A DNA stretch of 64,000 nt from an uncultured Pelagibacteraceae bacterium (GTDB taxonomy: Bacteria > Pseudomonadota > Alphaproteobacteria > Pelagibacterales > Pelagibacteraceae): NCBI GenBank assembly GCA_902610975.1, contig CACLXL010000001.1, forward strand, positions 62,001 through 126,000, in the 5' to 3' direction. A program made the position numbers and the translations under genes. Within the stretch, counting starts at the first letter, position 1. Each line of letters begins with the position of its first letter. Under the pieces are notes generated by a model. The model was not told where the DNA came from, made no database searches, and saw nothing but the letters and a program-made list of their open reading frames with translations. Below are positions 29,984-47,912 of this stretch, piece after piece.

Positions 29984-30925
29984 TTAAGCGTTAGCCGCAA
30001 CTCTTAATGGTTGGTGAGATCTAATTTTTTTGGAAATTACCACGTTATCTTTCAACTCAGTAATTGAATAGGCTGATTTAGTTTCTAACAGTCTTCTTAA
30101 AAAGGTATTAGTTAGTTTATGTCCTCCTTGAAAGCAATTTATTTTTCCAAGAACTCTAAATCCTGATAATAAAAAGTCACCTGCTAAATCTAAAATTTTA
30201 TGATTAACAAACTCTTTACTATTTCTTAATCCACCTTCATTTAAAACTTTGTCTTTGTCGACGACTAAGGCATTTTCTAAAGATCCACCTTGAGCAAGCC
30301 CATTCTTTTTAATTTTTTCTATATCTTCAAAAAGACAGAATGTTCTTGAAGATACAACGTCCTCAAGTGGGTCTAAGTAAAAATTAATAATATTTTTTTG
30401 ATTTCCTATAATTTTATTTTGATAATCTAATTGAAAAAATACCTCAAAAGAGTTGCTTGGCTCAATAGAAATTTTTTTGTCTTGATCAATTAATTCTAAT
30501 TTTTCTTGAACTTTTAAATATTTTCTTTTGATTTTAGTTTTTTTTATACCTGCTTTACTTATTCCATTTAAAAAATCTTTAGCAGAGCCATCCATGATTG
30601 GAACTTCTTCGTTGTTAATTTCAATTATAGCGTTATCAATTTCACATATGTAAAGTGCAGCTAATAAATGTTCCACAGTTGAAACTTTAACTCCAAATTT
30701 ATTTTCAAGTGTCGTACAAAGTTTAGCTGATGAAACGTTCTTATAATCTGCTTTTATGATATTATTTAATTTTAAATCTACTCTTTTGAAATAAATACCT
30801 TGAGTATCATCGTTTGGAATAACATTGATCTTTACTTTTTTTCCTGAGTGCAATCCTATGCCTTCAAATTTGACAGTTTTTTCCAACGTATTTTGATAAA
30901 TATTTAACATTGTCGTTTTATACAT
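29984..30925 (-). CDS. lpxC: UDP-3-O-acyl-N-acetylglucosamine deacetylase
   Basis: KFEGIGLHSGKKVKINVIP, VSTVEHLLAALYICEIDNAIIEINNEEVPIMDGSA, FVNHKILDLAGDFLLSGF. Confidence 0.97.
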   Translation of the reverse strand: MYKTTMLNIYQNTLEKTVKFEGIGLHSGKKVKINVIPNDDTQGIYFKRVDLKLNNIIKADYKNVSSAKLCTTLENKFGVKVSTVEHLLAALYICEIDNAIIEINNEEVPIMDGSAKDFLNGISKAGIKKTKIKRKYLKVQEKLELIDQDKKISIEPSNSFEVFFQLDYQNKIIGNQKNIINFYLDPLEDVVSSRTFCLFEDIEKIKKNGLAQGGSLENALVVDKDKVLNEGGLRNSKEFVNHKILDLAGDFLLSGFRVLGKINCFQGGHKLTNTFLRRLLETKSAYSITELKDNVVISKKIRSHQPLRVAANA

Positions 30926-30975: not shown

Positions 30976-32166
30976 CTAATTAAATAAAAAATCAAATATC
31001 CTTGCTATTATTGACTTTCTTTCTTGAATAATTGGAATTGCCTCTTTTTTCCACCCAAATTGAACAAGTTCGCCTGCATTTTTAAAAAAAAACTTATTTT
31101 CAAGTTTGCTCGCAATTTTTATTTCTAGTTGTTTATAGTTTGAGAGAAATCCGATAAAGCTCTCTTTAAAAAATTGAAAATTTGTTTCATCATTCATTTG
31201 TAAAATAATTAATTTCTGTTCCTTTAAGAAGTTATCTATATTTATATTTTTGGTAAATATGACTTCACATATTTCTTGGACCCTTGCTTGAGCAATATCT
31301 AAGACCATTTTTTTTTTTATTTTCCTAAAATTTTGATCAAAGTACTCTTTCTCAATTAAATCTTTTCCTGATTTTATATTTTTAAAATCAGTACTTAAAA
31401 GCAACTTTTTAATCTTATCTTTTTCAATAGCTAAAACTTTAGATATATCATTTACGATTATATCAGTGCCAAAATTAAAACTTTGAAAAAATTTTAGTGA
31501 AGAGTTTTTGAAAAAAACAATATTAGAATTATTTTCATTAATAGAAATATTAAAAAATGAGTTAATGTCATATTCTTTTATGAAGTAAATATTTTCTAGA
31601 AAGTTTTTTGAAATAGCTTTTTTTATATTTAGATTACAATTATTAATTAAGTTTTTAAGATTTCTATAATCGTTATTATTAATTAAAAAGAAAGAAAGTT
31701 CATGCGAGTAAAAATCTCCAAATAAACCAATTGGAATATTTTCAATATTCTTTTTGTCAAGGATATGATCAGAGTTGAAAATATGTAAAATTTTTTTATT
31801 TTTTTCTGTTTTGTCAACTTGAGATTTTAAAGAGTTAATAATGTAAGTAATATTTTCTTTAGTTAATTGTGAGCCATTTAGTTTTTTATAACCCGAAAAG
31901 TTAATTACCGAACATTCAAATTTACTCAAGATAAGAATAACATCTTTAAAAGTAAAATTTAATTTTTTTTCTATTGAATAAATATTTTCTTTAATATTTT
32001 TACTGACGAGATCAAAATCTTGAATTTTACCTTTAACAATACCGGGATTTAAACTGGAGTGACGAAGCACTATTTCAAAATTTCCATTACTATCATATTC
32101 AACTATTGTATAATAAAATTCGTATTCATCAATTTCTAAAAAAAATTCTAAAGACTTAAAAGACAT
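30976..32166 (-). CDS. ftsA: highly divergent cell division protein FtsA
   Basis: Position ftsQ-[this]-lpxC; FGTDIIVNDISKVLAIEKDKIKKLL resembles the FtsA GGDHITNDIA region; C-terminal amphipathic SIIARIFDFLFN like the FtsA membrane-targeting sequence. Confidence 0.75.
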   Translation of the reverse strand: MSFKSLEFFLEIDEYEFYYTIVEYDSNGNFEIVLRHSSLNPGIVKGKIQDFDLVSKNIKENIYSIEKKLNFTFKDVILILSKFECSVINFSGYKKLNGSQLTKENITYIINSLKSQVDKTEKNKKILHIFNSDHILDKKNIENIPIGLFGDFYSHELSFFLINNNDYRNLKNLINNCNLNIKKAISKNFLENIYFIKEYDINSFFNISINENNSNIVFFKNSSLKFFQSFNFGTDIIVNDISKVLAIEKDKIKKLLLSTDFKNIKSGKDLIEKEYFDQNFRKIKKKMVLDIAQARVQEICEVIFTKNINIDNFLKEQKLIILQMNDETNFQFFKESFIGFLSNYKQLEIKIASKLENKFFFKNAGELVQFGWKKEAIPIIQERKSIIARIFDFLFN

Positions 32167-32169
32167 TTT

Positions 32170-32826
32170 CTATTTTAAAATAAGTTGATCCTTAATTCTA
32201 TAATCAAAAGTTTTATATTTTCTAAAATTTGTCTGATTTTTTAACTTAATAAAATTTTTAAGGCTCAAATCATAATTTTTAATCGGTAGTTTAATTATTT
32301 GATTCTCTAAGGTGATTATATCCCATCTTTTTGACTCAAATAGGTAAAATTTTTTTATATCACTTATTGGAAAATCAATTTTTTCAAGATCATTGTAAAA
32401 AATTTCAAAACTTTTATTGTCTCCAAAAACTACAGGTAAATCTTCAAAACCATTTAATTTTTTATAATTTATTAACCCCTTATTAGTATAATAGTTTTTT
32501 TCTTTTTTATTCTGTATAATTGCTATTAATTGCTTTTCAAAAATTTTAACTTTTATTTGGTTGGGGTAAATTTTTTTTATTTCGATACTATCTATAAAAT
32601 CAAGTTCCTGTAATTTTGATATAATTTTTTTATTATTTAAAAAAAAAAGATTTTCCTGATATAAAAATGAAATTTTTTTTTTTATTGTTTGATCATCTAG
32701 AATTTTATTGTTTTCTATAGTAATTTTCTCTATTTTGATATTTCTATCTAAGCTATTATTAATCTTTGAGGTATAAGTACTTAAAAAAATTAAAATAATT
32801 GACGCAAATAAAACTCTTTTTTTCAT
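32170..32826 (-). CDS. ftsQ: cell division protein FtsQ (POTRA)
   Basis: One TM then POTRA pattern IEKITIENNKILDDQTIKKKISFLYQENLFFLNNKKIISKLQELDFIDSIEIKKIYPNQIKVKIFEKQLIAII; between ddl and ftsA. Confidence 0.88.
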   Translation of the reverse strand: MKKRVLFASIILIFLSTYTSKINNSLDRNIKIEKITIENNKILDDQTIKKKISFLYQENLFFLNNKKIISKLQELDFIDSIEIKKIYPNQIKVKIFEKQLIAIIQNKKEKNYYTNKGLINYKKLNGFEDLPVVFGDNKSFEIFYNDLEKIDFPISDIKKFYLFESKRWDIITLENQIIKLPIKNYDLSLKNFIKLKNQTNFRKYKTFDYRIKDQLILK

Positions 32827-46409: not shown

Positions 46410-47912
46410 TTAAAATTTTTGTCTTCTCAAGAATGCTGGGATTTCAAAATCCTCTTCAGCATTTGAGTCCTGGTCAAATAATTGATCAGTAAAATTATTC
46501 TCCTCATGATCTTTTGACTTATGGCCATCGTGCTCATGCTCTTCCGAAAAAAGTTTTGGAGTGCTTTCCTGAAGAATGTTACTTTGTACTATCTCATTTT
46601 CATAAGATATACTTTCATCAATTGTGCTCCCGTTATTCTCTATATATGATGCACTTTCAATAGAAACTCCTCTAGGAATTTCCTCTGTTTTCTCTTTTCT
46701 TAATAAAGCTTCCTCCTGAATTATATTTTCCTCTTTACTCTCAAAGCTATCTATCAATGCGCTTTGTTCTTCGTTATTTTTAATTTCGTATCTTTCATCA
46801 AGTTTCAAAGCAGTAGCTCCATCAATAGAGTTAATGACGTTTTGCTCTACGTTAGATTTTGAAAATAAATTTTCTGTAAAGATATTTTTATTCCCATTAG
46901 ATCCATTTACTACGTTTAGAACTGGTCTAGAGTCAGAAATTGATGAACCTTTAAGTGAAGTAGCAACAATCGACACTCTAATTTTACCGTTCATATTTTC
47001 ATCTTTTATTGCTCCAAAAATAAGTTCGGCTTCGGGATCTACCTCAGCTCTAATTTTATTTACTGCTGCATCAACCTCAAAAAGTTTAATATCGCTACCA
47101 CCAGTTATGTTTACAAGAAGTCCTTTGGCGCCTTGTAAAGTATACTCATCAATCAATGGATTATTTAAAGCAAGTTCAGTAGCAGCCATTGCTCTATTTT
47201 CCCCTTCTGCTTCTCCTGTGCCCATCATTGCTTTTCCACTCGAACTCATAACAGTTTCAACATCAGCAAAATCTAGATTTATCATTCCGGGCCTAACCAT
47301 TAAATCAGTTATGCTTTGAACACCATGTTTTAATACATCGTTAGACAAACTGAAAGACTCTTCAAAACCAGTTGACTCATTTGCTACTTTGAAAAGATTT
47401 TGATTAGGGACTACAATTGTAGTATCTAAATGCCTCTTCAATTCTTCTAAACCAGCAGTAGCTCTTCTCATTCTTTTAGGACCTTCATAAGAAAAAGGTA
47501 AAGTTGTTACACCAACGGTCAAAATATTCATTTCTCTTGCAGCTTTTGCAATTACATGAGAAGCGCCTGTGCCTGTTCCTCCTCCCATGCCAGAAGCTAT
47601 GAAAACCATGTTGCTTCCTTGAATATAATTTATTATTTCATTTATTGACTCATCAGCAGCAGCTTGGCCAATGTCGTGTTTTGCCCCTGCTCCAAGACCT
47701 TTGGTTAAATTCATACCAATCTGAATTTTTGCATCTGCTTTGCTCATCTTAAGATCTTGGGCATCAGTATTTACGGCAACAAATTCTACTCCTTGCATCC
47801 CTGCTTCGATCATAGCATTGATTGCATTGCCTCCTGCGCCTCCTACTCCTATTACTAAAATCCTTGGTTTTAATTCTCTCAACTCTCCACCTCCAACATT
47901 AATGCTCATCAC
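46410..47912 (-). CDS. ftsZ: cell division protein FtsZ
   Basis: ILVIGVGGAGGNAINAMI, GMGGGTGTGASHVIA tubulin signature, C-terminal peptide DFEIPAFLRRQKF. Confidence 0.98.
   Translation of the reverse strand: MMSINVGGGELRELKPRILVIGVGGAGGNAINAMIEAGMQGVEFVAVNTDAQDLKMSKADAKIQIGMNLTKGLGAGAKHDIGQAAADESINEIINYIQGSNMVFIASGMGGGTGTGASHVIAKAAREMNILTVGVTTLPFSYEGPKRMRRATAGLEELKRHLDTTIVVPNQNLFKVANESTGFEESFSLSNDVLKHGVQSITDLMVRPGMINLDFADVETVMSSSGKAMMGTGEAEGENRAMAATELALNNPLIDEYTLQGAKGLLVNITGGSDIKLFEVDAAVNKIRAEVDPEAELIFGAIKDENMNGKIRVSIVATSLKGSSISDSRPVLNVVNGSNGNKNIFTENLFSKSNVEQNVINSIDGATALKLDERYEIKNNEEQSALIDSFESKEENIIQEEALLRKEKTEEIPRGVSIESASYIENNGSTIDESISYENEIVQSNILQESTPKLFSEEHEHDGHKSKDHEENNFTDQLFDQDSNAEEDFEIPAFLRRQKF

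Follow-up and report, generated by a model that had tools for sequence, protein, structure and literature searches.

The ftsA Locus and the Identity of Its Product

The window, i.e., the whole stretch of 64,000 nucleotides analyzed here, carries on its minus strand an ftsA gene (30976..32166) that starts with ATG and codes for a protein of 396 residues, identified by profile, fold and alignment as a full-length FtsA without nucleotide-binding motifs. The gene follows ftsQ (32170-32826) in the division cluster and is flanked on its other side by lpxC (29984-30925), so that the order in the window is ftsQ-ftsA-lpxC. An earlier sequence-only reading had placed the frame in the ftsA position, and the coordinates that it gave were confirmed. 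Throughout the SAR11 order, ftsQ-ftsA-lpxC recurs with ftsZ about 15 kb away from ftsA (loci L002-L081 and L114-L137). In all examined loci of the order that reach that far, ftsA is followed by lpxC, with no ftsZ, and among other Alphaproteobacteria ftsZ was detected beside ftsA in 28 of 30. The lack of ftsZ behind ftsA does not mean that the genome is without it: this gene, coding for the presumed partner of FtsA, lies at 46410..47912 on the minus strand, apart from ftsA and adjoining mraZ.

Curated models recognize the protein weakly. TIGR01174 scores 98.9 bits (E = 3.1e-28), below its cut-off of 175.85, and PF02491, which describes domain 1C, reaches 19.7 bits against a cut-off of 25.4. Such scores could suggest that the protein is not FtsA, or that a shifted alignment hides motifs located elsewhere in it, a reading that we regard as extremely improbable and that the AlphaFold model, the fold match and the profile alignment rule out. 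The TIGR01174 cut-off is ill-suited to the order, since merely 12 of its 297 genomes pass it. A profile built from relatives of the window FtsA is collinear with E. coli FtsA (7q6d), residues 5-374 aligning with 8-387 (E = 3.4e-36). The AlphaFold model (45 natural sequences; pLDDT 88, pTM 0.83) has the FtsA fold, with domain 1C instead of 1B, and its best 19 matches among PDB structures are all FtsA chains, with PilM and EutJ coming next. The synteny likewise speaks against a misassignment, as do the lack of alternative glycine loops in the protein and the lack of a second FtsA locus, the other matches of a TIGR01174 search of the genome being MreB and a separate frame of 645 aa that is probably DnaK. 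The gene at 30976-32166 codes for a true but divergent FtsA orthologue.

Replacement of the Nucleotide-Binding Loops

The sequence-only reading had claimed that all three nucleotide motifs of this FtsA are replaced and that the MreB of the same window keeps its own. Both observations stand: the three stretches that it quoted correspond to the loops for phosphate-1, phosphate-2 and adenosine, none of them with the motif, and MreB retains its motifs, including LTGGG. The phosphate-1 position (32119..32136, minus strand; residues 11-16) reads EIDEYE whereas E. coli has EIGTAK (E14-K19); the phosphate-2 position (31522..31545, minus strand; residues 208-215), within the aligned stretch NISINENNSN, reads SINENNSN instead of DIGGGTMD (D210-D217); and the adenosine position (31183..31200, minus strand; residues 323-328) reads QMNDET instead of TGGAAQ (T335-Q340), ILQMNDET standing for VLTGGAAQ. 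In the AlphaFold model, the two phosphate loops lie in strand-loop-strand elements (6-12/16-24 and 204-209/214-220), as expected for motif sites, and the adenosine site in a strand-loop-helix (319-324/327-343). All 12 glycines of the protein lie outside the three loops, and a structure-guided alignment, which the earlier reading had named as its refutation check, found no intact motif elsewhere in the protein. Binding of ATP by the window FtsA, and switching on it, are most likely both lost.

This loss extends well beyond a single protein. FtsA was sampled from the genus of the window (g1, in the Pelagibacteraceae), its sister genus g9, the SAR11 genera g5, g6, g7, g8 and g10, the family f2, and 30 other Alphaproteobacteria (one genome each). 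The clade considered below comprises 45 proteins of g1 and six of g9 (51 species) and is compared with 59 other alphaproteobacterial FtsAs, for a total of 110. All three actin-superfamily motifs, phosphate-1, phosphate-2 and adenosine, are lost at the sequence level in 51/51 clade proteins. The adenosine glycine (E. coli G336) is found in 59/59 comparison proteins and in none of the clade, which mostly has I, L or F; the G16 site is Gly in 52/59 comparison proteins and in 1/51 of the clade (mostly N, D or S); the D210 site, D or E in 59/59 comparison proteins, is mostly K, E, N or Q in the clade; and the G213 and G214 sites are there mostly charged or Asn. All 51 sampled species in the two sister genera share the loss, which excludes chance divergence of a single sequence, and motif loss is a clade trait, wider than the earlier reading had stated. 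The mean conservation percentile of the ATP-motif columns drops from 0.85 in other Alphaproteobacteria to 0.33 in the clade, below the 0.54 of other formerly conserved columns (p = 0.012).

The other SAR11 genera mostly keep the phosphate-1 and adenosine glycines and have a degenerate phosphate-2 motif. In g5, g7, g8 and the full-length proteins of g6, D-x-G-S is kept in nearly all members, and g10 has E-L-G-N; in all of these, G336 is kept and phosphate-2 is already degenerate. A tree of FtsZ (single gene) groups g1 with g9 (support 1.00) and places g10 outside g1, g9 and g6; this grouping suggests that the motifs were lost completely in a single event, in the ancestor of g1 and g9. General erosion in small AT-rich genomes was rejected as the sole cause, since the divergent FtsAs of other Alphaproteobacteria with small genomes retain the phosphate-1 and adenosine glycines. 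Family f2 (L031, L041-L043, L045-L061) mostly has Arg at the G16 site (IDIRADK), together with a degenerate phosphate-2 motif and a conserved TGxGA adenosine loop, and possibly represents a separate partial loss. Genome G066 carries a full-length degenerate FtsA (L070).

A Lysine and a Glutamate in the Former Pocket

The codon of K187 (31606..31608, minus strand) corresponds to E. coli A188, a site near Mg-ATP. Lys occupies it in 51/51 clade proteins, and the 59 comparison proteins have S, A, T, G or C, never Lys. The E. coli residue is at most 8 angstroms away from Mg, and the A188V mutant retains 19% of ATPase activity (PMC10213515). The phosphate-1 acid is Glu in 47/51 of the clade and Asp in 56/59 comparison proteins. 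Lys187 would stand near this retained acid (Glu11), and a salt bridge between the two might take the place of Mg-ATP and fix the cleft in a single state; judging from the residues, such a bridge may act as a lock of the cleft.

The same two positions also bear on whether a nucleotide or another ligand is still bound in a remodelled pocket through non-canonical loop chemistry. A Glu so common at the phosphate-1 acid, with an invariant Lys nearby, indicates that the pocket is not drifting freely, and the Glu could mark some remaining role for a ligand; other SAR11 FtsAs, in which phosphate-2 is degenerate, kept the other loops. However, substitutions have affected all glycines lining the phosphates and the adenine, with charged or bulky residues in many of their places, and the loop columns rank among the more variable columns of the clade. 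We consider continued ligand binding improbable.

The predicted structure may point to a change in shape. Against Gammaproteobacterial FtsA, the window model gives TM scores of 0.65-0.68 and rmsd values of 5.3-5.7 angstroms; L032, a SAR11 FtsA with motifs that was modelled likewise as a control, gives 0.75-0.80 and 3.3-4.3. The domain arrangement of the window model thus departs more from FtsA crystals than that of the control, which may fit an altered cleft or domain angle, prediction error being also possible.

Conserved Binding Features and the FtsZ Tail

Regions that presumably contact partners are among the most conserved. Domain 1C (SHS2; 31714..31911, minus strand; Pfam match at residues 86-151) has H128, D137 and P145 in 51/51 clade proteins, as is also the case for D240. 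The 2B helix segment from R295 to E298 (31273..31284, minus strand) is invariant in all FtsAs compared, both residues being present in 110/110 proteins (51/51 of the clade and 59/59 others). We take the corresponding E. coli residues, R300 and E303 on the 2B helix, to be the contact for the FtsZ tail. The C-terminal amphipathic helix announced by the earlier reading was recovered as well (30982..31011, minus strand): AlphaFold predicts a helix at residues 386-395, with low model confidence there, and this helix is strongly amphipathic, its moment of 0.61 being attained by only 5 of the other 384 stretches of 12 residues in the protein. This helix is the presumed membrane anchor.

The presumed ligand of FtsA is the C-terminal peptide of FtsZ, EIPAFLRRQKF (46413..46445, minus strand), which across the genus reads EIPAFLR(R/K)QKF. 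The last residue of FtsZ (compared in the window and L114-L125) is Phe (...RQKF) in the sampled members of g1 and g9 and Asn (once Ser) in the other sampled genera of family f1. The terminal Phe coincides with the clade of motif-less FtsA, and the two may have co-evolved. SepF was found in 0/41 genomes of the genus and ZipA in 0/21, the positive controls being found in both searches, and the modest completeness of the metagenome-assembled genomes means that another tether could be missed.

Maintenance of ftsA

Several lines of evidence bear on whether the gene is on its way out, with FtsZ anchored by something else and motif loss reflecting relaxed constraint. Identity of FtsA within the genus is 34-51%, vs. 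69-84% for FtsZ, and the related genus g6 has lost half of the protein (see below), as decay would predict. However, between the window and the SAR11 single-cell genome AG-917-M03, whose FtsA (L113) is 95% identical, ftsA has a dN/dS of 0.117, similar to its neighbors lpxC, bamD, ftsQ, ddl, murB and murC (0.05-0.20 in the same comparison). FtsA matches were detected in 60 of the 67 genomes of the genus that are at least 80% complete and in 14/14 of those that reach 90%; in the larger set most are full-length and none has internal stops, the partial matches being fragments, several of them at contig ends. Residues are fixed across the genus, and no other known tether was found. Decay is therefore very unlikely, and a pseudogene was rejected given the dN/dS and the open frames without stops. 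The gene is maintained under purifying selection.

A Half-Length FtsA in Genus g6

Most sampled species of g6, the largest SAR11 genus, carry in the ftsQ-lpxC interval a half-FtsA of about 233 aa (L146-L170 and L173; e.g., L152:1495-2199:+). The 35 g6 genomes were chosen for their weak match to the family model, so the share of half-FtsA among them need not be that of the whole genus. The short protein matches FtsA residues from about 3 to 186 and passes straight into the last 46 or so; domains 2A and 2B are absent from it, and domain 1C is retained along with the C-terminal amphipathic helix. Its phosphate-1 loop is mostly lost, and His129 of domain 1C is present in 26/26. No match to a separate copy of the 2A/2B half was obtained. 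Their FtsZ still ends in EIPAFLRRQKN, with single-residue variants in two, which raises the possibility that the 2B site binds something other than the FtsZ tail. One g6 genome has its ftsZ match split in two by a TAA stop (G187:C5:118302-119694, L199), probably an assembly error. Compared with the window FtsA, half-FtsA has the same locus, domain 1C His and C-terminal helix and likewise no phosphate-1 motif; it differs by the deletion of 2A and 2B. In the FtsZ tree, the full-length and the half-length proteins are intermingled, a pattern that points to repeated deletion or to recombination, two processes which one gene tree cannot separate.

Taken across the order, it is somewhat more probable than the contrary that the division actin of SAR11 was dismantled stepwise, with loss of phosphate-2, then of all motifs in g1 and g9, and separately of the 2A/2B half in most sampled species of the largest genus, leaving a membrane-linked 1A/1C remnant of about 233 aa. 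If so, many very abundant ocean bacteria would manage division with no FtsA that switches on ATP, and in the half-FtsA group a site other than 2B would have to hold the FtsZ tail.

A Probable ATP-Independent Tether for FtsZ

The loss of the ATP site and the conservation of the fold, the ring-binding face and the membrane anchor suggest that FtsA is probably a static linker here and not an ATP-driven actin. The reading that we favor, and hold to be likely, is that of a genuine and maintained, full-length ATP-independent pseudo-actin that would tether FtsZ without ATP. FtsA would act as a constitutive adaptor that neither binds ATP nor switches on it: its C-terminal helix would insert in the membrane, domain 2B would hold the FtsZ tail peptide, and other FtsA molecules or downstream division proteins would be contacted through domain 1C. 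The earlier proposal of a nucleotide-independent membrane tether for FtsZ finds support at the level of sequence, as the C-terminal helix, domain 1C and the Arg/Glu pair of 2B are among the most conserved parts, the FtsZ tail is kept, and the searches of the genus yielded neither SepF nor ZipA. In E. coli, the pocket mutants E14R and S84L remain on lipid without ATP (PMC10213515), hence membrane binding is separable from ATP. Pocket mutants of E. coli, including E14R, S84L, A188V and D210A, fail to complement (PMC10213515), which implies that ATP-free function requires compensation.

The protein might also be more than a passive tether, namely a constitutive, ATP-independent filament former that domain 1C and a Lys-Glu bridge in the cleft would keep in a state competent for polymerisation. 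FtsA filament contacts involve domain 1C (PMC7613929), in which the clade has invariant residues, Lys is fixed at the A188 site, and the domain arrangement of the model lies further from FtsA crystals than that of the motif-bearing control. On the other hand, polymerisation of Deinococcus radiodurans FtsA is ATP-dependent (PMC4281207), and the difference between the models may be prediction error; we see such a filament as rather unlikely, and the adaptor as the preferred reading.

Significance and Relation to Known Systems

What ATP contributes to FtsA is not yet settled: in E. coli, mutants of the pocket fail (PMC10213515), while the FtsA of D. radiodurans polymerises with ATP without ATPase activity (PMC4281207). 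A clade in which the loss is fixed, in very small genomes, constitutes a natural experiment that would separate the role of tether from an ATP-driven role, and it points to changes that possibly permit life without the nucleotide, i.e., the pocket Lys and the terminal Phe of FtsZ. The finding also bears on the division of streamlined and very abundant ocean bacteria. The open literature yielded no earlier report of a motif-less or pseudo FtsA in SAR11, and no paper dedicated to the division of these streamlined bacteria, subscription papers and preprints lying outside the search.

Several actin-like proteins offer parallels. The cytoplasmic domain of GspL has an actin-like fold and probably serves as a scaffold with no working nucleotide site, in type II secretion and not in division; it is not among the structure matches listed for the window model. 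PilM and EutJ (5eou, 2ych, 3h1q), the next-best fold matches after FtsA, are also actin-like scaffold proteins; unlike the window FtsA, they belong to a pilus or microcompartment context, and the structures of PilM carry ATP or ADP. Closer in function, D. radiodurans FtsA was likewise reported to be without ATPase activity, but its ATP-dependent polymerisation means that nucleotide binding is retained there (PMC4281207). With known FtsA (TIGR01174; E. coli 7q6d, T. maritima 1e4g/4a2a), the protein of the window shares the fold, domain 1C, the Arg/Glu helix of 2B, the C-terminal amphipathic helix and the place after ftsQ, and differs in its three missing nucleotide motifs, the Lys at the A188 site and an ftsZ that is not adjacent. 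It is an FtsA by fold, synteny and presumed binding residues, one whose sequence has parted with the nucleotide motifs of the actin superfamily.
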